This document shows, piece after piece, positions 44,287 through 58,644 of a stretch of 64,000 nucleotides of DNA (its first letter is position 1; the number at the start of each line of letters is the position of its first letter). A program made the translations under genes and the position numbers. The notes beneath the pieces were generated by a model. That model ran no database searches and was not told the DNA's origin. It was given only the letters and a program-made list of their open reading frames with translations. The stretch comes from Candidatus Nitrospira kreftii (GTDB lineage Bacteria > Nitrospirota > Nitrospiria > Nitrospirales > Nitrospiraceae): positions 2,294,001-2,358,000 of the forward strand of contig CP047423.1 of the NCBI GenBank assembly GCA_014058405.1. Reading direction: 5' to 3'.

Positions 44287-44727
44287 TTATTTCGCAGCTC
44301 TCAAGGATCGTATCGCTGACCGAGCCGCTGAACGGGCCTTGATGGCCGGATTTAAGAGCAAGCCAGGATCGGCATGGTCTCCTATCTCCGATACTCGTTT
44401 ACATTGGCGGATCACCTCATTGAGCGGCACGACAGTGTCTTCTCGATCTGGATGGGATATTGATACTTCCTTGATGAGCGATTCCGCATATCGAGCAGCC
44501 TCTCCACAATGCTGAACAATGGCCTTGGCATCGCCCATTCCACCGTGAGCCACCATATCTTCAGCATTTCGTAACAACCCATCACGCTGTTCATGGAGCT
44601 TCTCATCCAACTCGGCGGCTCCTAGCATCGCTACCATTCCAATTGAAACACTGGTCGACGTGAGAAGCACACTGACTATTGATTTCATGCACAGCCGTCG
44701 TCGCTGCGACAGCGCCCTTCCGGTCAT
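44287..44727 (-). CDS. SmbP-like small metal-binding protein, exported
   Basis: A 146-residue frame whose ATG overlaps the stop of the preceding gene as ATGA, with a plausible ribosome-binding site; a second start at 44688 gives 133 residues. A signal-like segment (SIVSVLLTSTSVSIGMVAMLGAAE) is followed by repeated helices with the pattern AEDMVAHGGMGDAKAIVQHCGEAARYAE. This resembles the helical hairpins of SmbP, a copper-binding protein of ammonia oxidisers, but with fewer His. The RRR-L run before the hydrophobic part could be a Tat signal; uncertain. It is the last gene of a three-gene unit with a cupredoxin-like protein. Confidence 0.62.
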   Translation of the reverse strand: MTGRALSQRRRLCMKSIVSVLLTSTSVSIGMVAMLGAAELDEKLHEQRDGLLRNAEDMVAHGGMGDAKAIVQHCGEAARYAESLIKEVSISHPDREDTVVPLNEVIRQCKRVSEIGDHADPGLLLNPAIKARSAARSAIRSLRAAK

Positions 44728-45233
44728 CGGTACCGCCTTTCCGAGTTGATATGTGCCGAGGTGAGATCTCGATAGAGAAGATGAAATGCTTCTGTGCTCA
44801 ACTCTGGATCACGCAGCTTTTCCAATGCTTCCTGGCTGATGGAATACTCGACGGTGTCGTCATAATTGGACGAGGCAATCGTGATGAATCGTGGAGGAAA
44901 TAATCGTTCCGGCAACAAGATCGTAACACCCAAGTTATACTTGAGTGCCAGCCGGATCGCCTCTCGCGCTTTCTCGGCGGTGACTTCCCGACCGAGTCCG
45001 ATGTTTTGTGGCGGTTGCCCCATCCTAGCAAATTGGAAATGCACGTTGGCAAACCCAGCCTGCGAAAAATCCTGTTTGAGTTCGGCTTCACGAGTCCGAT
45101 ACTGGTAGGCTAATACCACCTCGACACGGCTCACGGCTGGCGCTGCCGCGACTTCTCCACGCTCGGCGAAAACCGTGTTTTCACCAATGGTACCCACCAG
45201 TAGCACACCGAAGAGACAGCGCTGCAACCACAT
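44724..45233 (-). CDS. hypothetical exported protein
   Basis: A 169-residue protein with a signal peptide (CLFGVLLVGTIGENTVFA). The mature part begins VSRVEVVLAYQYRTREAELKQDF and contains no Cys. It may be an alpha/beta sandwich (VTILLPERLFPPRFITIA). Not recognised. It lies three bases after the cupredoxin-like gene and overlaps the SmbP-like gene by four bases, so all three are co-translated. Confidence 0.72.
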   Translation of the reverse strand: MWLQRCLFGVLLVGTIGENTVFAERGEVAAAPAVSRVEVVLAYQYRTREAELKQDFSQAGFANVHFQFARMGQPPQNIGLGREVTAEKAREAIRLALKYNLGVTILLPERLFPPRFITIASSNYDDTVEYSISQEALEKLRDPELSTEAFHLLYRDLTSAHINSERRYR

Positions 45234-45236
45234 CGA

Positions 45237-46016
45237 TTATTTCCCCTTAAACGCAAACTCGACTGAACTCGTGCTACCTGCCGCGATCGTGATCTCCTGA
45301 TCTTGTTCTCCAAGTGCCGGGTGCCAGGCTCGGATTCGGTAGGTACCTGGGGGAAGATCTCCGATATCAAACAGCCCTTCGCTCCCCGTCACCGCATAGT
45401 AGGGATTATCTACGGCAAGTCCATGCCCCTGCATGTACGGATGCATCCCGCATTGCATGATGACACCACGCCGATCCCCTGTAAAACGAACAATATCCTG
45501 AGTCCCGCCTTTCGTCAGGGCAGGGCGATGAAACATGATGAAGACATGTTCCCAGTCTCGTTCATAGACTTGCAGATCATGTGCGATGGAATCGAGGTTT
45601 TTCACCGTCATTGGATGCTCGCTGCGCATGACCGACACATATGGCACAAACTGACAGATATTGGCTTCTACCTTCGTTTCTTCGAGTTCAAATGGCTTCC
45701 CTCTCGTGACGCCCACGATCGTCACGATCGCGTCTTTCAATCCACCTTGCGCATCCACCATCACCTCACGTAGCAGGCGATAACCTGACCCATCGGACAG
45801 GGCGCCACAATACACTTGGTCCGGATAGCGGTTCAGTTTGAAGGCAGACGGATCAGGCAGGTTGCCGGTGAAATACACCCTCCCTTTGATGGACCCTCCA
45901 TTGACGACCGACATGGATTCGTATGCGGAGGCATCGACTGTCCAGACGATGCTGAGAATGAAGATGAAAATAGCCCTGAGAACAATACGCCCGGGCCATC
46001 GTGTAATGCAGCGCAT
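45237..46016 (-). CDS. exported cupredoxin-like / carboxypeptidase-regulatory-like domain protein (paralogue A)
   Basis: A 259-residue exported protein. After the signal peptide (to about VDASA) comes a beta domain with SVVNGGSIKGRVYFTG, then the segment NLDSIAHDLQVYE and VIMQCGMHPYMQGHG, and a C-terminal domain ending FDIGDLPPGTYRIRAWHPALG, typical of carboxypeptidase-regulatory-like folds. The C-x2-H-x2-M spacing (CGMHPYM) matches the loop of amicyanin-type blue copper proteins, and the His of IAHDLQ could be the fourth ligand. Copper binding is an inference. AGGAG precedes the ATG at 46016. Two paralogues are at 61713 and 62661. Confidence 0.72.
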   Translation of the reverse strand: MRCITRWPGRIVLRAIFIFILSIVWTVDASAYESMSVVNGGSIKGRVYFTGNLPDPSAFKLNRYPDQVYCGALSDGSGYRLLREVMVDAQGGLKDAIVTIVGVTRGKPFELEETKVEANICQFVPYVSVMRSEHPMTVKNLDSIAHDLQVYERDWEHVFIMFHRPALTKGGTQDIVRFTGDRRGVIMQCGMHPYMQGHGLAVDNPYYAVTGSEGLFDIGDLPPGTYRIRAWHPALGEQDQEITIAAGSTSSVEFAFKGK

Positions 46017-46040
46017 AGCTATCGCTCCTGTAAAAGACAC

Positions 46041-46060
46041 TGGGGAGCGAGGGCTCCCCA
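46041..46060 (-). terminator. hairpin upstream of paralogue A
   Basis: Perfect 8-bp stem TGGGGAGC / GCTCCCCA with a GAGG loop, read on either strand. In the minus direction it is followed by TCTTTT. It lies between the large oxidase gene and paralogue A. Confidence 0.55.
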
Positions 46061-46092
46061 ATTGAGTACATCTCAACTGACTGAGCAGGACG

Positions 46093-46132: not shown

Positions 46133-49100
46133 CTACTTCTTGGCTTTCAGCGATGTCGCAGACGCTTTGGCCTTACCCGACGGCTTCTCAGCCGTTTTTA
46201 AGGGAGGAACTTGTGGCATTAACGGTTTGATCCGTTGGTCATCGACCGGGAGAACTTTGAACAGGCCCCACTGCCCTGCATTGGCATAGGCCGGTCGTTG
46301 ATTCTTCCATAAATAGTCACCCACGATCCTGTTTGGACCGCCGGCACCACCGGTAAGATGGGCATTGATGATTTCGGACCCCCCAAACTCCATGGTGCTC
46401 ACTTGATCAGCACCCTGCATGTACGGCTCATGTGGCCATTCATGTCCATCGATCGTAAACAGTTGCACCTGCTCACTGAAAGCACCCAGGACGTGAACGG
46501 CCACTGGGTCACCAACATGTGCCTGAAGCAGCGGAGTCGATGGCGTTTCCCCTGCTTTGACGCAAGCGAACACTTCAGGAATGTCACAGCCTTTTTCCAT
46601 CCGCCATGCCGTCGGCTCCGAGCGGTAGTTTACCGCCGTAATACCGGCCACCTGTTGGATATAGGGCATGAAGCTGACGCCGACGATGTTGTCCTCGTCC
46701 TGGAACATCAACGAGAAGTCTCGATAATTCTTCCGGTTATCGTTGCCCGGAATAGTCCGGTCAACGAGCACATCGGCACGCCAACTGCTCTTCATCGTAA
46801 TATCCTCGCCAGTCACTGGGTCTCGATAGCGAGAGCCCTTCGGACCAACGATGATAGAACCAAAGAGCCCGTTCCGTGGATTCTCCACGACGTTCCCCCA
46901 ATCCTGAATCAACGCAGCAAGTTCGCCATATTCAGGGTGAGCATAGTACGTGTAGGTCTTGCGCTCACCGGGACCAACAGTTTGGTCACCAGGATTGTTG
47001 CCCACATTGGCACCGAACGAGTCCTTCGGGTCAAACGCCATCATGTCGACGTGGAACCCTGCGCGATCCTTGGCCATCTCATTTTTTAGATTAATCTTTA
47101 CACAATCACCGACATTGACGTGCAAAGTCAGCGGGCTCGGCTTGAGTTCTCCGGCCTTGACCCGCCCACGATCTCCGTCGAGCACATACATCTTGCCCTG
47201 CTCGTTGCCGAAGACCATCTTCCGCTCAAGATCGACTTCCATCACACCAGGCGCCCCTTCATTGTACCGAATCTGTTGATCGACCGCGGAGACATTGAAC
47301 GACTTCACCGGCGCATCAGCCGGACACACCGACGGAGCAGACTTTTGAATCTGCTCATGTCCAGGCAACGGCTTCAGATCTCCCTGCATTTCATCGAACA
47401 CTCGGAACAGACCCCAGCTGCCTTCCGCAAAATGCGACGCACGACCGCTGTAGTAGAGATAGTCGCCCGCCTGCTTTTGCGGACCACCAGCCGCTGGAAT
47501 AGCCGGATCATACCGCTCACCGATCACCAAATGGACCGTACTGCGCGGCATGGCATCCTTTCCGTACCGTTCCATCGGGAACCAATGTCCGGTCACGTGC
47601 CAGGTATGCACTTCATTGGCAGACCCAACGAGCGCCCGCACAAGAATCGGGTCACCGAGGTACGCCCGTAGCAATGGCGTCCCTGGATCACCATGAATTC
47701 CGGAGACGAACAGTTTGGACGGGTCAGGATTGTTGGCAAGTCGCACGCTCAACGGCTCCACACGCATGCCATAGCCGCTCCCCGTCGTGGCCTCACCCCC
47801 GTTCAAAAACCACATGGCAGACTTATTGATTTTCTCAGGGAATTGATGCGATGGGGGTCCATCCACCGTCACGGCATTCATCTTTGCTTGAGGATTGTCT
47901 GTCGTGATCAGCTCCGCCGTTCGGGCGTTGCTGTCCATGATATGCATCATGACTTCGCGGAAACTCCCACGAATATGAGCAGACACCGGTTCCAGCGTAT
48001 GGATGTCCGCGATGGGGCCGCTCCGGATTTCTTTCCCGGTCACCGGATCATGATAGGTCGACCGTGGCGGCTCAGTGATGAAAGCCGAGAAGAGGCCATG
48101 GCCCCAGGTATCGGTACCAAACACATGATCATGCCAGTACACGGTGCCGAGATCCGCATCCACATACCAGCGCTCACGGATGAACTCCACGCTGGCAATG
48201 TCATTCTTCTTGTGCCCGTGTTTCAACGGCGCATCGAAGGTGATGGTCTTGCCGTTGATGGTCTTAATCCGTGCCACCTCGAAGAACTTCGGATCATCCA
48301 TCCCAACCCCAAGTTCCGTGTTCACATGGAACTTGGACGTATCCGCGACGGTGATGCTCCGGGCCCCGGCCTTGGTATCTGCCGTCAACACCGTGTTGCC
48401 TGGGAGCGGCATACCCTTGTCCGGTTGTGGGTCTTTCAGCATCGTGAACGCCCTGAGAGACATGTCGTACGAGAAGCCGATCGTAGGACCATCGGACGCA
48501 CTCGTATCGAACTGGAAGAAATGCGGATGGAGGTTGATCTTGTTCGACCATCCAGTGCGCGCATCGTCAGGAATTTCATTCTTGAAGATGACATCTACGC
48601 AATCATACACGTTGCCGCGAATGACCAGCGGCACTTGTTTATCTGGATTCTTCCGAACTTCTGCCTCCTCTTCATGGAGAACATAAATCATCCCGATGGG
48701 ATCCACGAGCGCCGGTGTGTTTGCCGTTGCTGGTTTCAGGGTGATTGGGAGAGTAATGGAATGGATCGTAAAGTATTTCCGCGGAGCATTGTCCGGACAC
48801 AAGCTCCATGGACCCTGCGCTCCTGGCTTCGGTGGCTCCGTATCTCTCGTCCCATCTTCTCGAACACGAAACGGTTCTAGCCAGGGTGCGCCACCGTGGT
48901 TCGGCGCAAAGGGTGGACGCTTTCCGAGGTGCGGACGCAACCAGGGGAACGCAAGCTTACCCGTTTGTGGATCAAACGTGATCGGCAGGCGCTTCAGAGG
49001 AGCAGGCGAGACATAGTCCGCCCACTTATGCGGAGTTTCCGGCTCATTCAGCGCTAACGCGCCTTCCCACTTCCAGTTCACCACCGTTGGATCGTTGGCC

Positions 49101-50878
49101 TTGGCTTGCTTCACTTGATCCTCTGTTTTACCAGGCAATCCCTGCGGAGGAAGCATGTACTCCACCCAATCCTTGATGGAGACCTTGACTGGATTGGCTT
49201 TCCAATCCGTCTTGTCCTTGGTGATCTCATACTTCTTGCCGCCGTACCAATCGACCGTGGTGCCGACCAGCTTATCGGAGCTGATCGCAGCTTTAATCTT
49301 GCCTTGCCGATCCGGTAGCTCGACAAGGGGCTTCATCACATCGGTCTGGAATCCGGGAGACTGCAATGTGTTGTACACGCGCCAGAATCCCCACATGCCC
49401 GTGACATAGTGCTGTGGAATATGGCAGTGGAATACGAATTCGCCGGCCAATGCTTGCAACCCGCCGGATCCGCCCTCGATCACCTCATCATAGATTTCCG
49501 AGGGACCGATCGACTGCACGTCTAACCGATCGGAGGTGTCGTTGATCAGAGGGAACTTGACGGGACCATTCTTCGACAGGGTCGGATCCAATTTACTGGT
49601 GCCGGGCTGTCTTGCCCAGCGGATCGACCCACCGTGGAGGTGGTGAGAATGGACGATCTCTGACCCGCCGACCATCCGGAACTTCGCTGGGTCGCCCAGA
49701 TAGGAGCGTGGAATCGTCGTGGCTGGGTCACCGAATGTATAGGAGCCATAGCCCTGAGATTCATCAGCAAAGCCTACCAGATGCTCTTGCATCTCCAATC
49801 GAGTGCCATGCGGCTCACTCCGGTAGTTGAGCAACCGGGCCGCAGGCCGATAGGTGTCGGTATGGGGATCGCGCTGGGGCAGCATATCCCCTTTACGATC
49901 CAACAAGCGAAATGTCTCATCGCCGGCTTCATGATAAAAAATCACAAACTCTCGGAAGTCTGACCCGTTCGCCACATCGATCATGGCTTCCCAACCGCTC
50001 TTCATGTCTTCACCCGTGAAGGGACTCAGGAAACGTGACCCTCGCGGCTCAACCACGAGGGAGCCGAGCAGTCCGAGCGAATACTGATCTCTCGTGGCAT
50101 GACTATGAAAAGCATGCCCTCCTTCCTGCGTATCCGGCTGGATATACCACTCGAATTCTCCAGTTTTTCCCGACGGTACCAGTGCATCCGGGTTATTGGC
50201 TGTCGCCGGTTTTCCATTACTGGCCACCAACATCTGGGATCCATTGATGATCATATTGGTGGGTTCACCTTCGATCTGATTCCGAAGGATCACCCGCAGA
50301 CAGTCTCCCTGATTTGCTCGGATCACCAAAGGCTGAATTAAATCACCCTGCAAGCCGTTGGACACCGCACCCTCGGCGAACGTCGGATCCTCACTCTCTC
50401 GTGCCGCCTTATTCTTCGCTTCTTCTTCACGCACCCCGGCCACGTTCTCGGTGAGCACATACATGAAGCCGGGGTAAAAATCTCCGAACCGATTGACCGT
50501 GATTTCAACGTTCATCGCAGTCACATCGTAGGAACGGACTGGTGCGTTGGCTTGGCATCGGCCGCCCTGCGTCACCTTCACCTTGTCCATGTCATCCGCG
50601 ACGAGCAAGATCCCTTGCTGCATCGCATGGGCACTCGCTCCCTGGAATGGCCCTCGTGTTTGAACCTGCCGCTCGATCTGCTCAATAGCCTTTGTCATCT
50701 TGTCCTGAAGAATAGGACCGGCCTGCGCATGGACCGGTTTCACCACATCTCCCGTTGCAGACTGAGAAACATGAGCATCGTGAGACATGATTGCCCCTGC
50801 CGGCAGCGCCCCAGCCAAGAATAAAAAGGCCGTGAGCCCGCAGACCGCTGACTGAACCCACTTTGTTGACTCACCCAT
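46133..50878 (-). CDS. giant multicopper-oxidase-like protein (1581 residues)
   Basis: An exported protein with a signal peptide (SAVCGLTAFLFLAGALPAGA) and about six to eight cupredoxin domains in three repeated blocks. Block 1 has GGHAFHSHATRDQYSLG near residue 255, EIVHSHHLHGG near 411 and VFHCHIPQHYVTGMWG near 486; the last is a full type 1 copper site (Cys, His at +5, Met at +10). Block 2 has NLHPHFFQF near 784, VYWHDHVFGTDTWGHG near 919 and VHTWHVTGHWF near 1094, but no HCH. Block 3 is degenerate (GDYLWKNQRP). Substrate unknown: large oxidases of this size oxidise metals or other small donors with oxygen. The ATG at 50878 follows AAGGAGGAGG. A sigma-54 promoter and activator lie upstream. 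Confidence 0.88.
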   Translation of the reverse strand: MGESTKWVQSAVCGLTAFLFLAGALPAGAIMSHDAHVSQSATGDVVKPVHAQAGPILQDKMTKAIEQIERQVQTRGPFQGASAHAMQQGILLVADDMDKVKVTQGGRCQANAPVRSYDVTAMNVEITVNRFGDFYPGFMYVLTENVAGVREEEAKNKAARESEDPTFAEGAVSNGLQGDLIQPLVIRANQGDCLRVILRNQIEGEPTNMIINGSQMLVASNGKPATANNPDALVPSGKTGEFEWYIQPDTQEGGHAFHSHATRDQYSLGLLGSLVVEPRGSRFLSPFTGEDMKSGWEAMIDVANGSDFREFVIFYHEAGDETFRLLDRKGDMLPQRDPHTDTYRPAARLLNYRSEPHGTRLEMQEHLVGFADESQGYGSYTFGDPATTIPRSYLGDPAKFRMVGGSEIVHSHHLHGGSIRWARQPGTSKLDPTLSKNGPVKFPLINDTSDRLDVQSIGPSEIYDEVIEGGSGGLQALAGEFVFHCHIPQHYVTGMWGFWRVYNTLQSPGFQTDVMKPLVELPDRQGKIKAAISSDKLVGTTVDWYGGKKYEITKDKTDWKANPVKVSIKDWVEYMLPPQGLPGKTEDQVKQAKANDPTVVNWKWEGALALNEPETPHKWADYVSPAPLKRLPITFDPQTGKLAFPWLRPHLGKRPPFAPNHGGAPWLEPFRVREDGTRDTEPPKPGAQGPWSLCPDNAPRKYFTIHSITLPITLKPATANTPALVDPIGMIYVLHEEEAEVRKNPDKQVPLVIRGNVYDCVDVIFKNEIPDDARTGWSNKINLHPHFFQFDTSASDGPTIGFSYDMSLRAFTMLKDPQPDKGMPLPGNTVLTADTKAGARSITVADTSKFHVNTELGVGMDDPKFFEVARIKTINGKTITFDAPLKHGHKKNDIASVEFIRERWYVDADLGTVYWHDHVFGTDTWGHGLFSAFITEPPRSTYHDPVTGKEIRSGPIADIHTLEPVSAHIRGSFREVMMHIMDSNARTAELITTDNPQAKMNAVTVDGPPSHQFPEKINKSAMWFLNGGEATTGSGYGMRVEPLSVRLANNPDPSKLFVSGIHGDPGTPLLRAYLGDPILVRALVGSANEVHTWHVTGHWFPMERYGKDAMPRSTVHLVIGERYDPAIPAAGGPQKQAGDYLYYSGRASHFAEGSWGLFRVFDEMQGDLKPLPGHEQIQKSAPSVCPADAPVKSFNVSAVDQQIRYNEGAPGVMEVDLERKMVFGNEQGKMYVLDGDRGRVKAGELKPSPLTLHVNVGDCVKINLKNEMAKDRAGFHVDMMAFDPKDSFGANVGNNPGDQTVGPGERKTYTYYAHPEYGELAALIQDWGNVVENPRNGLFGSIIVGPKGSRYRDPVTGEDITMKSSWRADVLVDRTIPGNDNRKNYRDFSLMFQDEDNIVGVSFMPYIQQVAGITAVNYRSEPTAWRMEKGCDIPEVFACVKAGETPSTPLLQAHVGDPVAVHVLGAFSEQVQLFTIDGHEWPHEPYMQGADQVSTMEFGGSEIINAHLTGGAGGPNRIVGDYLWKNQRPAYANAGQWGLFKVLPVDDQRIKPLMPQVPPLKTAEKPSGKAKASATSLKAKK

Positions 50879-51290: not shown

Positions 51291-52706
51291 TCAGAATGAT
51301 CCACGCAAGCCATGCTTCTTGACCATCCGCTCAATCGTTTTGCGATCCACACCCGCTTCACGCGCCGCTCGACTCATATGCCCATCGTTGCGTTTGAGCA
51401 GCTCTAAGAGAAATTCCCGCTCAAATGCTTCCACGGCTTGTTGCTTCGCCTGTTTAAATGATGCGCCTTCCGGTGGCAACACATCTTTTTCAGTTGACTG
51501 CACAAGACGTTCGGGGAGATGCTCGCTCCTGACCATGGCACCGTCGACCAACACCGCCGCGCGCTCCATGACATTCTGCAACTCCCGTACATTCCCAGGC
51601 CAAGAATATCGCATCAGGATATCAGCTGCCGACGAGGCGATGGTCGGGACCGCATGACCGTCGGATCGAACCCGTTGCGCAAACCTGGTCAAAAATTCAT
51701 TGGCTAGGAGAAGAATATCTCCTCCGCGTGATCGGAGAGGCGGAAGCATGATGGAAATGACGTTCAGTCGATAATAGAGATCGTGCCGAAACGTCCCTTG
51801 TTTACATTGCTCTTCGAGGTCTTGGTTGGAGGCGGCAATCACGCGAACATCTACAGGGGTCAGACGAATCCCCCCCACGCGACGCACATGTCGTTCTTGT
51901 AACACGCGCAAGAGACGAGCTTGAAGATTCGCAGTCATCCCGCTGACTTCGTCAAGAAAGATGGTTCCTCCGTTTGCCGCCTCAAATAGACCAGACTTCG
52001 CGACATGTGCCCCGGTAAACGCTCCCTTCTCATGACCGAACAGTTCAGATTCTAAGAGCGAGTCCGGCAGCGAGGCGCAATCCAACGGAATAAACGGGCG
52101 GTCTCCACGAAGACTCGCTTCGTGAATCAAGCGAGCAACCATTTCCTTTCCGGTCCCGCTCTCTCCATAGACAAGCACGTTAGAATCCGTCGGAGCCACC
52201 CGGTTGATCAGCTTCACGACCTCATGCATTGCCGGGCTATTCCCCACTAACCGTCCGGTTTGTTCTGACCATCGGACTTGTGCTTGTCCGGAAGATACGT
52301 CGGCAAAGTATGGTGGCGCATCTCCACCGCCGGACGTCTTGCTATCGAACGCCCGCCGCGCTACCTGGATGAGCTCATCGCTGGTAAAGGGTTTCGTGAT
52401 GTAATCAAACGCGCCGTGCCGCATCGCTGTCACTGCCGTCTCAACCGTTGCATGGGCGGTCAACAACACGACCTGCACGGACGGATCCGTTCGTTTGGCG
52501 GCAGCCAACACTTCGATTCCATCGAATATCGGCATTCGCAGGTCCGTCAACACAAGACCGGGGCGCTCGCGCTCGATCAGTTTGACTGCCTCAGTTGGAT
52601 CGGAGGACACCACGCAATCGAACGGCACGCGACTGAGAATTCTTCGACAGTTTTCCAGGGCCTCTATTTCGTCATCGACTATGAGAACTTTGCCTGCGAT
52701 TCCCAT
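51291..52706 (-). CDS. sigma-54-dependent response regulator (NtrC family)
   Basis: A 471-residue activator: receiver domain with the phospho-Asp in VLTDLRMPIF, AAA+ domain with GESGTGKE, intact GAFTGA loop and IFLDEVSG, and a Fis-type helix-turn-helix (MSRAAREAGVDRKTIERM). Its start overlaps the end of the kinase gene by 28 bp, so the two are a cognate, co-translated pair. The large oxidase gene downstream has a possible sigma-54 promoter, making it a likely target. Confidence 0.92.
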   Translation of the reverse strand: MGIAGKVLIVDDEIEALENCRRILSRVPFDCVVSSDPTEAVKLIERERPGLVLTDLRMPIFDGIEVLAAAKRTDPSVQVVLLTAHATVETAVTAMRHGAFDYITKPFTSDELIQVARRAFDSKTSGGGDAPPYFADVSSGQAQVRWSEQTGRLVGNSPAMHEVVKLINRVAPTDSNVLVYGESGTGKEMVARLIHEASLRGDRPFIPLDCASLPDSLLESELFGHEKGAFTGAHVAKSGLFEAANGGTIFLDEVSGMTANLQARLLRVLQERHVRRVGGIRLTPVDVRVIAASNQDLEEQCKQGTFRHDLYYRLNVISIMLPPLRSRGGDILLLANEFLTRFAQRVRSDGHAVPTIASSAADILMRYSWPGNVRELQNVMERAAVLVDGAMVRSEHLPERLVQSTEKDVLPPEGASFKQAKQQAVEAFEREFLLELLKRNDGHMSRAAREAGVDRKTIERMVKKHGLRGSF

Positions 52707-54712
52707 ACGTTTTCCTCAACCATTCCGCTATGGCTAAAAGCAGGCATCGCCACGACAAACTGCGCGCCCGTTTCCCCATTCTTTGCCTCGATCCGCCCAC
52801 GGTGATCGGACACGATCCCATACGTCAAGAACAGACCGAGTCCCGTCCCTTGCCCACCCGACTTTGTACTGAAAAATGGGTCGAACACTCGGCCGATGAT
52901 CTCGCATGGGATCCCAGGACCGTTATCTGCTACCGTGATCTCAACCCAAGATTGCCCCTCCATCTGAAACGCCCGTGTCTGGATCGAGACGATACCACGC
53001 GCACCAAGGGGACTGACCGCATCAATGGCATTGTTGATCAGATTGAGGATCACCGTCTCTAATCGATCACGATCGCCCATGATCGGAGGGAGCGACGACG
53101 CCAGCAGCTGCACAAGCCGAACAGAAAGGGCTGATACCCTTTCACCTGCAATAGCGAGGCTTGAACGGACCACGCTATTGACATCGATCGGCTTGAGAGT
53201 CGACACCGTCCCGCGCGAAAAAGTCAGAATGCTTCTCGTCACCCGTACAATACGTTCGGCCTGCGCTCGGACCGCCAAAAGATCACGCCTCACCTCGGCG
53301 GGCAGCAGAGAGCGAGACGCATCGGCCTCCATACATTCGATGCGATTTAAAATAATCCCAAGAGGATTGTTGATCTCATGTGCGATCCCACTTGCGACTT
53401 TACCCAACGAGGCCAGCCGCTCGGCCAACTCCAGACTTCTCATGTGTCTGGTGATTTCCTGTGTCTTTTCCTCCACGCGACGGGCCAGGTCCTGATTCAG
53501 TCCTTCAAGCTCAGCGCGCGACGCCTGCAACCGATCCGCCATCCGATGGACGGCCACGGCCAGTTCTTCAAATTCATCACCCGTATGGATGTGAAGCGGA
53601 CGATCATAGGTCCCCTGACTAATTGCCTCAACACCGGCTTGCAACAGCTGAATCGGACGGGCAATGCGCGCGGCGACATACCGCCCAATGGCCCATAGGA
53701 GCCCCAGCATGACAAGCCCAATGATGGCCAGATTTCGTAGTTGATCACGGATCGGCGCATAACTCTCCGCGGGCTGTTGTCGGACAAACACATGCCATGG
53801 ATTGTCCGGCAATCGAAGCTGAGCAACCGGCGCATACCCCACAACCGTATCGGTTGCGCCATGCCCATCATCTTCTGCAATTCCCCACCCCGGCTGCGAA
53901 GACACAATCATCGTCATCAGCTGACCCGGGATACGATGGGCTTGCCGAGGGAGAATCGGACAGACCAGAGGATTCCCTGCGTCGTCATACAACATGGCAT
54001 GCCCCGTCTGTCCGATGCGAATTTCCTTAATCATGGCGAAGAGGGTATCGAATCGGTAGGAGGCTTTGACCGCTCCGATGACCACCCGTTGCCGTTCGTC
54101 AAGAATCGGCACGGCGATATCAATCGTTTCTTCTGATGTTCGAAATGACCCCTCTTGAGCCGGTATCAAGCTACTGACATACACCTGATCGCCGCTTCCA
54201 GCCACGACGGCTTTCCACCACGGTTCATCACCAAAATAGAAATGGTCGGGATCGGAGCTGGCGGCCACCAGGGCCCCGTGCTGATCCGCAATGAGCAGGC
54301 CGATGACTTTATCTCCCCCCCGAACTTTCGTTTCCAGCAAAAAGCGGGAGAGCTCCAAATCCAACAGATGCCCACCGCGCTTATCCCCCACTTGCCACAG
54401 CTGGGCCCGCTCCCCAATGACACGCTGCGCGCTGCTCATGTCCATGGGATAAGAACGATTGGCAGCCTCAACAGGCTGACGAACACGTAACGGAGCCGAT
54501 CCCAGTAGTCGAACAGCTTGTACTTCGCTCTGGACCAACATCGTCACTCGATCGGCGGCTTGGATCGCTACGGCTTGCAGATTCCCTCCGATGACATCGC
54601 GGAGGGACTGCATTCCCGAGACATACGCGAGAATGAGTCCGATCACCAAGGGAATACATCCCACCAGTACAATGGCCCATACGATTCTTCCACGAATGGT
54701 CCGCATCCTCAT
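52679..54712 (-). CDS. membrane sensor histidine kinase with Cache domain
   Basis: A 677-residue kinase. TM1 (IVWAIVLVGCIPLVIGLILAY) and TM2 (NLAIIGLVMLGLLWAIGRYV) frame a periplasmic dCache-type domain of about 280 residues (LLIADQHGALVAASSDPDHF, AVPILDERQRVVIGAVKASY). HAMP, a phospho-acceptor His in GIAHEINNPLG, and the ATPase motifs DNGPGIP and GTGLGLFLTYG follow. The extracytoplasmic sensor suits a system acting in the periplasm. The ATG at 54712 has AGGAGG before it. It is followed by its response regulator. Confidence 0.92.
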   Translation of the reverse strand: MRMRTIRGRIVWAIVLVGCIPLVIGLILAYVSGMQSLRDVIGGNLQAVAIQAADRVTMLVQSEVQAVRLLGSAPLRVRQPVEAANRSYPMDMSSAQRVIGERAQLWQVGDKRGGHLLDLELSRFLLETKVRGGDKVIGLLIADQHGALVAASSDPDHFYFGDEPWWKAVVAGSGDQVYVSSLIPAQEGSFRTSEETIDIAVPILDERQRVVIGAVKASYRFDTLFAMIKEIRIGQTGHAMLYDDAGNPLVCPILPRQAHRIPGQLMTMIVSSQPGWGIAEDDGHGATDTVVGYAPVAQLRLPDNPWHVFVRQQPAESYAPIRDQLRNLAIIGLVMLGLLWAIGRYVAARIARPIQLLQAGVEAISQGTYDRPLHIHTGDEFEELAVAVHRMADRLQASRAELEGLNQDLARRVEEKTQEITRHMRSLELAERLASLGKVASGIAHEINNPLGIILNRIECMEADASRSLLPAEVRRDLLAVRAQAERIVRVTRSILTFSRGTVSTLKPIDVNSVVRSSLAIAGERVSALSVRLVQLLASSLPPIMGDRDRLETVILNLINNAIDAVSPLGARGIVSIQTRAFQMEGQSWVEITVADNGPGIPCEIIGRVFDPFFSTKSGGQGTGLGLFLTYGIVSDHRGRIEAKNGETGAQFVVAMPAFSHSGMVEENVWESQAKFS

Positions 54713-54858
54713 CGAGGCCTCCTGCGAGAATGCCATATTTTACCCATCGTCAGCGGGAAAACTCCATGGGGCAGAATATCAGAAGGGACGCCTGTACCGA
54801 CCTTCTGAAAACACGAGATTCTGCAACAGAACAAGGAATCAGGGCGATCCTACGCCGT

Positions 54859-55902: not shown

Positions 55903-56118
55903 TCGACAATCCTTTCGAACCGTCCATCATCATGGACCACAATGAAATAGAATCAGCTGTTGTTCTCCCTGAAATCTTGCCAGCATACCGCATCACTCTT
56001 GTTTAATTCAGCCCTCATGAACACGTATCGAGGCTCTCCGCCTCCCTTGTAAGCCGTGGAACCTGAGCTTATAGTCTCACACAAAACGAGTCCTCATGAA
56101 CATCCCGGACAGCGCTTG

Positions 56119-57018
56119 ATGCCGAACCGTCACACGTCGTCTCTACTCTCCCTGTTTCTCCTTTTTGTCATGCCATGCCCTACGATGGCAGCCGCTGAAT
56201 CAAAACCCACTCCGGAACTGGCCAAGCATTTGATTCGGATCGCTGGACTGGCCCAACCATCCCCGATGGTGACCATCCCTGCCGGGACATTTTTGCTCGG
56301 TTCCAAGAGAGTCGATGGTGATCCATATGGAAAGTGGACACAGTTCGACGATACAGAACTCCCTCAGCAACAGGTCTGGTTGGATGACTACGAGATCGAT
56401 CGTGAGGAAGTCAGCCTCGGAGAATATCTCTCCTATCTGCAGAAGAAGAAGCTGCATCCCTCTTCTGAATTGCAGAAACTCATCTGGCATCTTATTACCG
56501 TCCATTTCGTTTCTGACCAGACGTTGAGCCGATGGCCTGCGCTCTATGTCACATGGGCAGAGGCACAGAGTCTCTGTACGGCAAAGCGCGCCAGACTTCC
56601 GACGGAGGCCGAATGGGAAAAGGCAGCACGCGGTCCTGCGGGTAACCTCTATCCATGGGGCGAAGCGCCTCCTACCTCCACTCTTGCCATGTTTGGGCAG
56701 CATCACGTTCATGAAATCCCCATTCTGGACGCCGTCGATTCACATGATGACGGAAAGAGCCCCTATGGCCTTCACCATATGGCAGGCAACGTGGCGGAAT
56801 GGATACAGGACTGGTTCGGCTTCGACTACTATGCCTATATGCCGGAGCGAAATCCGCCTGGCCCGACCGCAGGGCGCTACAAAGGTGTTCGCGGAGGCTC
56901 CTGGAAAAGTAAGCGGGTGATGCTCCGATCTGCGACCAGAGGCGGGGGTGCTCCGGATCAACGTTCGGCAACGATCGGATTCCGGTGCGCACGAGCCTCG
57001 ACTGCTCCGCTCCCGTAG
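56119..57018 (+). CDS. exported FGE/NirV-like (SUMF1-domain) protein 1
   Basis: A 299-residue protein with a signal peptide ending PTMAAA. The SUMF1 domain runs from VTIPAGTFLLGSKR to GFRCARAS: WAEAQSLCTAKRARLPTEAEWEKAARG, GNVAEWIQDWF, GVRGGSWKSKRVMLRSATRG. True formylglycine-generating enzymes have a Cys pair in the loop after RGGS; here it is absent. The fold is therefore kept but not that chemistry. Paralogues at 57733 and 58775. The start at 56119 is the best of several. Confidence 0.85.
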   Translation: MPNRHTSSLLSLFLLFVMPCPTMAAAESKPTPELAKHLIRIAGLAQPSPMVTIPAGTFLLGSKRVDGDPYGKWTQFDDTELPQQQVWLDDYEIDREEVSLGEYLSYLQKKKLHPSSELQKLIWHLITVHFVSDQTLSRWPALYVTWAEAQSLCTAKRARLPTEAEWEKAARGPAGNLYPWGEAPPTSTLAMFGQHHVHEIPILDAVDSHDDGKSPYGLHHMAGNVAEWIQDWFGFDYYAYMPERNPPGPTAGRYKGVRGGSWKSKRVMLRSATRGGGAPDQRSATIGFRCARASTAPLP

Positions 57019-57121
57019 CGACTCGCTTACGACGCAACTCCACGCGCTGTAGAATATCCACATTAATCAGCCGGCAGCTGGTGAGGAACATACGCTGATT
57101 CTTATGGTAGGATCTTGCACG

Positions 57122-57712
57122 ATGCGTCAGCTCTATTGGATATTCGTGCTGGTGTGGAGCGTACTCCTGTTTGGACAACAGGCTTCAGCCCTGGAGTTTA
57201 CCGCTGATCAGGTCACCAAGATCGATGGTAAGTTGCACAAAGCCTACATCTATTACCGTGATGCCATGTGGCGGATCGAACACCATAGCACGGGACCGGT
57301 GAACGTCAGCATCGTACGAAAAGACAAACAGATCGTCTGGCTTTTACTTTCAAGAATAAAACACTTCAAGACCATTCCCTACCGCCCTGACCATGACTTG
57401 AGGGTGCGTGTGCAGCTGGAGGGGGAAATCTCGCGTCAGGAGATCGGTTCTGAAGTACGCGAAGGTCATCCCACGGTGCTCTACGAAGTCACCACAAAAC
57501 AAGGGGAACGAGTCGATGCCTACTATCAGTGGGTCGCGACAGATCTACATTTCCCCATGAAGCTGGCCAAGAAAGACGGCAGCTGGATCGTCGAGTATCA
57601 ACACGTAAAAAAGCGCTCCGTTTCAGACTACCTGTTTAACTTACCGGTGAACTTTCAACCACTGGAAGCATTTGACACGCCGGAGCCCAAATCGAACGGG
57701 CCAACTATGTGA
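57122..57712 (+). CDS. exported LolA/DUF4412-like protein 1
   Basis: A 196-residue exported protein with a signal peptide ending QQASA. The mature part is a long beta sheet (YIYYRDAMWRIEHHS, VSIVRKDKQIVWLLL, AYYQWVATDLHFPMKLA), like LolA-type or DUF4412 lipoprotein-binding folds. Related in pattern to 61071-61706. It overlaps the next gene's region only by a few bases and is co-transcribed with both FGE-like genes. Confidence 0.72.
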   Translation: MRQLYWIFVLVWSVLLFGQQASALEFTADQVTKIDGKLHKAYIYYRDAMWRIEHHSTGPVNVSIVRKDKQIVWLLLSRIKHFKTIPYRPDHDLRVRVQLEGEISRQEIGSEVREGHPTVLYEVTTKQGERVDAYYQWVATDLHFPMKLAKKDGSWIVEYQHVKKRSVSDYLFNLPVNFQPLEAFDTPEPKSNGPTM

Positions 57713-57732
57713 GACACGAAGGAGGGTGGATC

Positions 57733-58644
57733 GTGCGAGTTTATCGACTTACCTTAGGCATGACACTGACGGGACTGATTGCGGTGGGGGGAGCACTTGC
57801 ATTGGACGTGGCCGATGTTGTCCGCCAGTGGACTCCTGAAGGAAAACGACTGGCGGAGGAGCGAGCCACACTTTCGGCGCATGACGAAATGATCATGATT
57901 CCTGCCGGTGAGTTTTTGATGGGAAGCGACAAAAAAGTTGATCGCAACGCCTACCAAGCCGAACTCCCACAGCGCAAAGTCTATCTGGATGCTTACGAAC
58001 TCGACAAATTTGAAGTCACGACCGTACAATATCTGAAATATGTCCTGGCTCATGATCTACCGCCTCTGATCGACTGGCAGTATGACGGTGGAAACTTCCA
58101 GGAAACGATGTCGAATCATCCCGTCATGCACATCTCCTGGGCTGAGGCCGACGCCTACTGCAAGTGGGCCGGCAAACGACTGCCGACGGAAGCCGAATGG
58201 GAGAAAGCCGCGCGCGGAGAGGATGGACGGATCTATCCCTGGGGCAATCAGATGGCCGGGTTGTCGCGAGCCAACTTCGGGCGGACTGGGCTGTCAGGCC
58301 CGGTACGAGATCGCCCCGAGCGCCTCTTGCTCTATCCCCCGATTATTTCTGTCGACAAGTACGACAATGCTGTCAGTCCGTACGGTGTCTTTCAGATGTC
58401 CGGTAATGTGGCCGAATGGGTCGCCGATTGGTATGACTCAAAATACTATGCCACGGCACCCGATCGAAATCCGAAGGGACCAGAGAAGGGAACTCAGCGG
58501 AGCTTCCGCGGCGGCAGCTGGATCGACAGCACCCCAAGCGTACGAACCGCGCAACGCAACGGGACCGACCCCAACACCAAGATGAATTGGCTCGGCTTCC
58601 GTTGTGCACGAGATGCGAAGGCGTCACCAGAAGCCCAGAACTAA
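57733..58644 (+). CDS. exported FGE/NirV-like (SUMF1-domain) protein 2
   Basis: A 303-residue protein starting at GTG 57733 after GGAGG. Signal or anchor segment LGMTLTGLIAVGGALAL. SUMF1 marks: MIPAGEFLMGSDKK, GKRLPTEAEWEKAARG, SGNVAEWVADWYDSKYY, FRGGSWIDSTPSVRTAQRNG, LGFRCARDA. The Cys pair of formylglycine-generating enzymes is missing. It lies close behind the LolA-like gene. Confidence 0.86.
   Translation: MRVYRLTLGMTLTGLIAVGGALALDVADVVRQWTPEGKRLAEERATLSAHDEMIMIPAGEFLMGSDKKVDRNAYQAELPQRKVYLDAYELDKFEVTTVQYLKYVLAHDLPPLIDWQYDGGNFQETMSNHPVMHISWAEADAYCKWAGKRLPTEAEWEKAARGEDGRIYPWGNQMAGLSRANFGRTGLSGPVRDRPERLLLYPPIISVDKYDNAVSPYGVFQMSGNVAEWVADWYDSKYYATAPDRNPKGPEKGTQRSFRGGSWIDSTPSVRTAQRNGTDPNTKMNWLGFRCARDAKASPEAQN

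Follow-up and report, generated by a model that had tools for sequence, protein, structure and literature searches.

In two-domain laccases such as SLAC and Ssl1, the copper centre forms where two subunits meet, from domain 2 of one and domain 1 of its neighbour. These enzymes are homotrimers; the oxidase described here is a single chain and, like them, is predicted to carry its centre at a block junction. Where three copies of the two-domain unit are present in one protein, a single junction would be active: that of domains 2 and 3 in MnxG, the Mn(II) oxidase of marine Bacillus, as in the present oxidase, and that of domains 6 and 1 in ceruloplasmin.

Vasin et al. (2013) placed the trinuclear site at domains 2/3 in all the bacterial six-domain oxidases analysed, and a mononuclear site in domain 2 only, with residual ligands elsewhere (PMC3600357). 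Their set includes Leptothrix proteins of 1569-2016 aa, and no Nitrospira protein is listed in the part of the appendix considered here (PMC3600357). 'Two novel MCOs' were reported in each Manganitrophaceae genome, and these would need a periplasmic electron carrier for lithotrophy (PMC9040806). MnxG was reported in Nitrospira MAGs from a manganese-removing drinking-water filter, and Nitrospira was linked to manganese removal (PMC12070406).

The oxidase described here is encoded in a window of Nitrospira DNA, by which is meant the whole stretch of 64,000 nucleotides that was analysed. It is very probably an exported, MnxG-like six-domain oxidase with one working copper set, at domains 2 and 3.

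Identity of the oxidase

The open reading frame, of 1581 aa, lies on the minus strand (46133..50878) and has no internal stops. A good ribosome-binding site, AAGGAGG, is found 5′ of its ATG, and inspection by eye points to an apparent signal peptide from residue 1 to about residue 29. Pfam Cu-oxidase_3 and Cu-oxidase_2 matched block 1 alone, and the NCBIfam model for MnxG, NF041487, gave a score of 132.6 bits, far below its equivalog cut-off of 3100. A sequence search of the PDB returned MnxG (9bxa) as the top solved relative (E 3.3e-92), in an alignment that runs collinearly from block 1 to block 3 over query residues 114-1358, with further repeats matched; two-domain laccases were matched over domain 2.

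An AlphaFold model of residues 105-1178, comprising blocks 1 and 2, had a mean pLDDT of 74, with the five models ranging from 60.7 to 74.1. Its first fold match was 9bxa (E 2.9e-55, probability 1.00), at ~23% identity in the fold alignment. Ceruloplasmin, which has the six cupredoxin domains also predicted for the oxidase, was the second-best kind of match (E 7.7e-22), and two-domain laccases came lower. Judged by sequence and by model, the oxidase is distantly related to the manganese oxidase MnxG; it is very probably a further member of the MnxG-like bacterial six-domain kind, the design of which is already known. Its substrate, judged only from the kinship with MnxG, is most probably Mn(II) or another metal ion.

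As in MnxG, the repeats are collinear, domain 2 carries a type 1 site, and the trinuclear motifs are divided between domains 2 and 3 in the order III-IV-I-II. A difference is the linker between blocks 1 and 2, which is longer in the Nitrospira oxidase, with ~185 residues (48809..49363, minus) and two invariant histidines, H650 and H661. The PHLGKRPPFAPNH segment of the linker was not found in the Priestia MnxG-like proteins. The pattern PHxGKR..F.PNHxGAP, at 48869-48946 (residues 645-670), contains both histidines; it also occurs in a Streptomyces relative and is missing in Priestia.

Likely copper ligands of domains 2 and 3

The exported oxidase would consist of three two-domain cupredoxin blocks. 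Since each block can contribute motifs I-II from its first domain and III-IV from its second, the motifs of a centre at the junction of two blocks run III-IV first and I-II second. This is the order found along the chain: motif III, HSHHLH (residues 410-415; 49634..49651, minus), and motif IV, HCHIPQHYVTGM (484-495; 49394..49429, minus), lie in domain 2 and are followed in domain 3 by motif I, HPH (784-786; 48521..48529, minus), and motif II, HDH (916-918; 48125..48133, minus). The I-II...III-IV order of three-domain laccases was not found.

The target was aligned with 91 Nitrospirota homologues, for a total of 92 proteins with identities down to 51%. Twelve residues of these motifs, H410, H413, H415, H484, C485, H486, H490, M495, H784, H786, H916 and H918, are identical in 92/92, a count that overstates the independent evidence because the set comes mostly from one class of one phylum. 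A better test is given by seven distant proteins from six lineages, at 25-32% identity: those of Streptomyces, two Priestia plasmids, Halomarina, Haladaptatus, Rubrobacter and Microvirga. All seven have the four motifs at the same places, including HSHHLH, HxH at motif I and HDH at motif II, with one exception in Rubrobacter, where the axial Met is replaced by Phe. The four motifs are thus common to Priestia, haloarchaeal, actinobacterial and alphaproteobacterial relatives.

Invariance alone is no proof of copper binding, since other histidines outside the copper set are invariant as well (H316, H412, H650, H661, H889, H927, H943, H1098, H1116 and H1462). In the 92-protein alignment 281 of the 1581 positions are invariant. 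The probability that ten chosen histidines would all fall among the 20 invariant ones of 51 is 1.4e-5 when the relatedness of the sequences is ignored. Further support for these residues as copper ligands comes from the motif pattern and the MnxG alignment. The domain 2/3 motifs stand in the MnxG order, and H490, the second His of the type 1 site, is aligned with position 340 of 9bxa, the title of which names the Mnx H340A variant.

On these assignments, the four motifs are predicted to supply exactly one type 1 site and the eight histidines of one trinuclear centre. The type 1 copper of domain 2, held by H410, C485 and H490 with M495 as the axial ligand, would receive electrons from an outside reductant and pass them through the HCH motif to the trinuclear centre, where O2 would be reduced to water. 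The centre would be made up of H413, H415, H484 and H486 from domain 2 and H784, H786, H916 and H918 from domain 3. The four type 1 ligands are invariant; Cys is absent at the corresponding positions of domains 4 and 6. From the observed homology, invariance and motif positions we infer that copper occupies these sites in this geometry, that electrons follow this path and that the protein is an active oxidase. That the histidine pairs of domains 2 and 3 converge is argued from homology; in the AlphaFold model domain 2 is weak, with pLDDT ~35-48 in and just after motif III and 44-74 over motif IV.

The initial annotation had proposed that a trinuclear centre may form between blocks 1 and 2, in an order different from that of laccases, and that one type 1 site is fully kept in HCHIPQHYVTGM. 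All three proposals are supported by the invariance of the ligands, the agreement of the seven distant relatives and the conserved III-IV, I-II order. The arrangement split across blocks is not unusual, since MnxG and the oxidases of Vasin et al. (2013) share it: the bacterial and archaeal six-domain oxidases likewise have a domain 2/3 trinuclear centre, a domain 2 mononuclear site and remnants elsewhere (PMC3600357).

Probable remnant motifs at other junctions

Every motif quoted in the initial annotation is present, and its placing of copper motifs at HSHHLH and HCHIPQHYVTGM in block 1 and at HPH and HDH in block 2 agrees with the ligand set given above. The annotation's reading of HSH as a working motif II of block 1 and of HTWH as a working motif III of block 2 is not supported, as both vary between subfamilies and are absent in the distant relatives. 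Compared subfamily by subfamily, the motifs of the alignment all change except the four of domains 2 and 3, and these are also the only quoted His motifs invariant in 92/92.

In domain 1, motif I is the degenerate NMIING (208-213; 50240..50257, minus), which reads HIH in many relatives and IN or VN in the subfamily of the target. The HSH of the same domain (258-260; 50099..50107, minus), at the motif II position, is HH, HY, HF or RH by subfamily. In domain 4, HTWHVTGH (1091-1098; 47585..47608, minus), which contains HTWH (1091-1094) and corresponds to motif III, is replaced by HHH, MTH or HTH by subfamily, and H1098 is its sole invariant His among the Nitrospirota homologues. SGRASH (1144-1149; 47432..47449, minus) stands at the motif IV position of domain 4 and is without Cys; its H1149 occupies the second type 1 His position. 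The non-invariant histidines are retained to different extents: H258 in 79/92, H260 in 61/92, H1091 in 72/92, H1094 in 60/92 and H1149 in 72/92. Neither HSH of domain 1 nor HTWH of domain 4 was found in the seven distant relatives, which keep the four real motifs. As working motifs both were rejected; because of their variation between subfamilies they are best read as remnants of equivalent sites at other junctions.

Block 3, consisting of domains 5 and 6 (46235..47326, minus), has no copper-site set. Its motif positions are without HxH or HCH and it retains isolated histidines only, H1276 and H1479, in agreement with the initial description of this block as having almost no copper motifs.

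The remnants could instead form a second functional metal site, an extra mononuclear or substrate site made up either of the domain 1 HSH and residues of domain 6 or of H1091, H1094, H1098 and H1149 of domain 4 with H1276 of domain 5. Within the subfamily of the target (41 sequences, >80% identity) none of these last five histidines varies, and H258/H260 are retained in 40/41. Among the 92 proteins H1091 and H1149, which are at type 1 His positions, mostly covary (H/H in 70, M/K in 18, mixed in 4). A second site is unlikely, however: the type 1 position of domain 4 is without Cys, H260, H1094, H1149 and H1276 are variable or lost in other subfamilies, and neither domain 5 motif II nor domain 6 motif IV contains a His in the alignment.

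It is also very hard to believe that oxidase activity has been lost and that the protein is structural or serves in metal storage. The many degenerate sites would agree with such a role, and activity data for the Nitrospira family were not found, but all 92 proteins share the twelve ligands of the complete site, as would be expected if catalysis were under selection. A ceruloplasmin-like trinuclear centre at domains 1/6, with the domain 2/3 motifs secondary, is next to impossible and was rejected for its missing ligands, since despite a ceruloplasmin-like overall fold and the retention of both domain 1 HxH motifs in some relatives, domain 6 has no HCH, only H1479 is strongly conserved among the histidines at its motif positions, and domain 1 motif I is lost in the target (NMIING). 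With one working copper set at domains 2 and 3, the remaining junctions would retain scattered remnant histidines.

Genome context

The genome is a single contig of 4.13 Mb in which an ammonia monooxygenase gene is clearly recognized (PF02461, E 4.5e-101). This gene, together with the occurrence of the nearest relatives of the oxidase in Nitrospira MAGs, indicates that the host is most likely a comammox-type Nitrospira. Two paralogous oxidases of 1610 and 1642 aa (L005:3773-8605 and L005:10590-15518), 53-55% identical, are encoded just outside the window, within ~25 kb. Both have the domain 2/3 copper set, and one of the two has HIH in domain 1. Two more cupredoxin genes adjoin the first paralogue. 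Several sulfatase-modifying-factor-like proteins with an FGE-sulfatase domain are encoded at scattered places around the oxidase genes, at 56056-58644 and, as recognized by eye, at L005:9575-10468.

The locus differs from the Priestia Mnx locus in having no small partner genes directly upstream of the oxidase. Instead, Pfam matches identify a sigma-54 response regulator and a dCache histidine kinase (51291..54736, minus), which may regulate the oxidase, judging from position only. A sigma-54 promoter 5′ of the oxidase was rejected: the best site has two mismatches, and there are 28 such matches in the window.

Directly downstream of the oxidase (45237..46076, minus) is a gene for a type 1 cupredoxin fused to a carboxypeptidase-regulatory-like domain, with the ligands H166, C209, H212 and M215, numbered from the ORF start. 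The His, Cys and His ligands are present in 90/90 homologues and the Met in 89/90. The model has a pLDDT of 91.6, and its PDB matches are pseudoazurin, amicyanin, plastocyanin and the Nitrosopumilus cupredoxin 5fc9. Of 82 testable oxidase genes, 59 have a cupredoxin homologue that starts ≤1.2 kb downstream; about seven cupredoxin copies are found in the genome. Gene order suggests that the oxidase may exchange electrons with the cupredoxin next to it. A further copy (G000:C1:3128833-3129522) lies ~24 kb from the ammonia monooxygenase gene match.

Two other small genes lie nearby. That at 44287-44727 is similar to SMBP, a small metal-binding protein (Pfam E 2.8e-5, below the cut-off), and has homologues at 33/79 loci. 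The other, at 44724-45233, codes for an exported-looking protein of 169 aa that has no Pfam match and is present at 41/79 loci.

Distribution and significance

A homologue of the oxidase is present in 195/197 genomes of the same Nitrospirota class. In a phylum-wide draw, 45 of 148 genomes gave a match. The class accounts for 40 of these, and the remaining five matches are weak (E 3.8e-5 to 1.2e-19). The family is close to universal in the class and almost missing from the rest of the phylum. Homologues with ~60% and ~53% identity occur in Candidatus Manganitrophus genomes, and the ~60% group of the Manganitrophaceae differs from the target in having HIH as well as HSH in domain 1. These homologues are probably the MCOs meant in the earlier report (PMC9040806).

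Separation of the likely copper ligands from the other His motifs is useful for mutating and annotating Nitrospira 'MnxG' genes. The wider point is the near-universal presence in the class of a complete MnxG-like oxidase with a linked blue copper protein. The two proteins could form an electron-transfer pair that would deliver electrons, taken from Mn(II) or another metal, both to O2 and to a periplasmic carrier. We consider this quite improbable; if true, it would provide nitrifying Nitrospira and their Ca. Manganitrophus relatives with a metal oxidation that yields energy or is protective. For the periplasmic carrier called for in Manganitrophaceae (PMC9040806), the linked cupredoxin is a candidate that can be tested.
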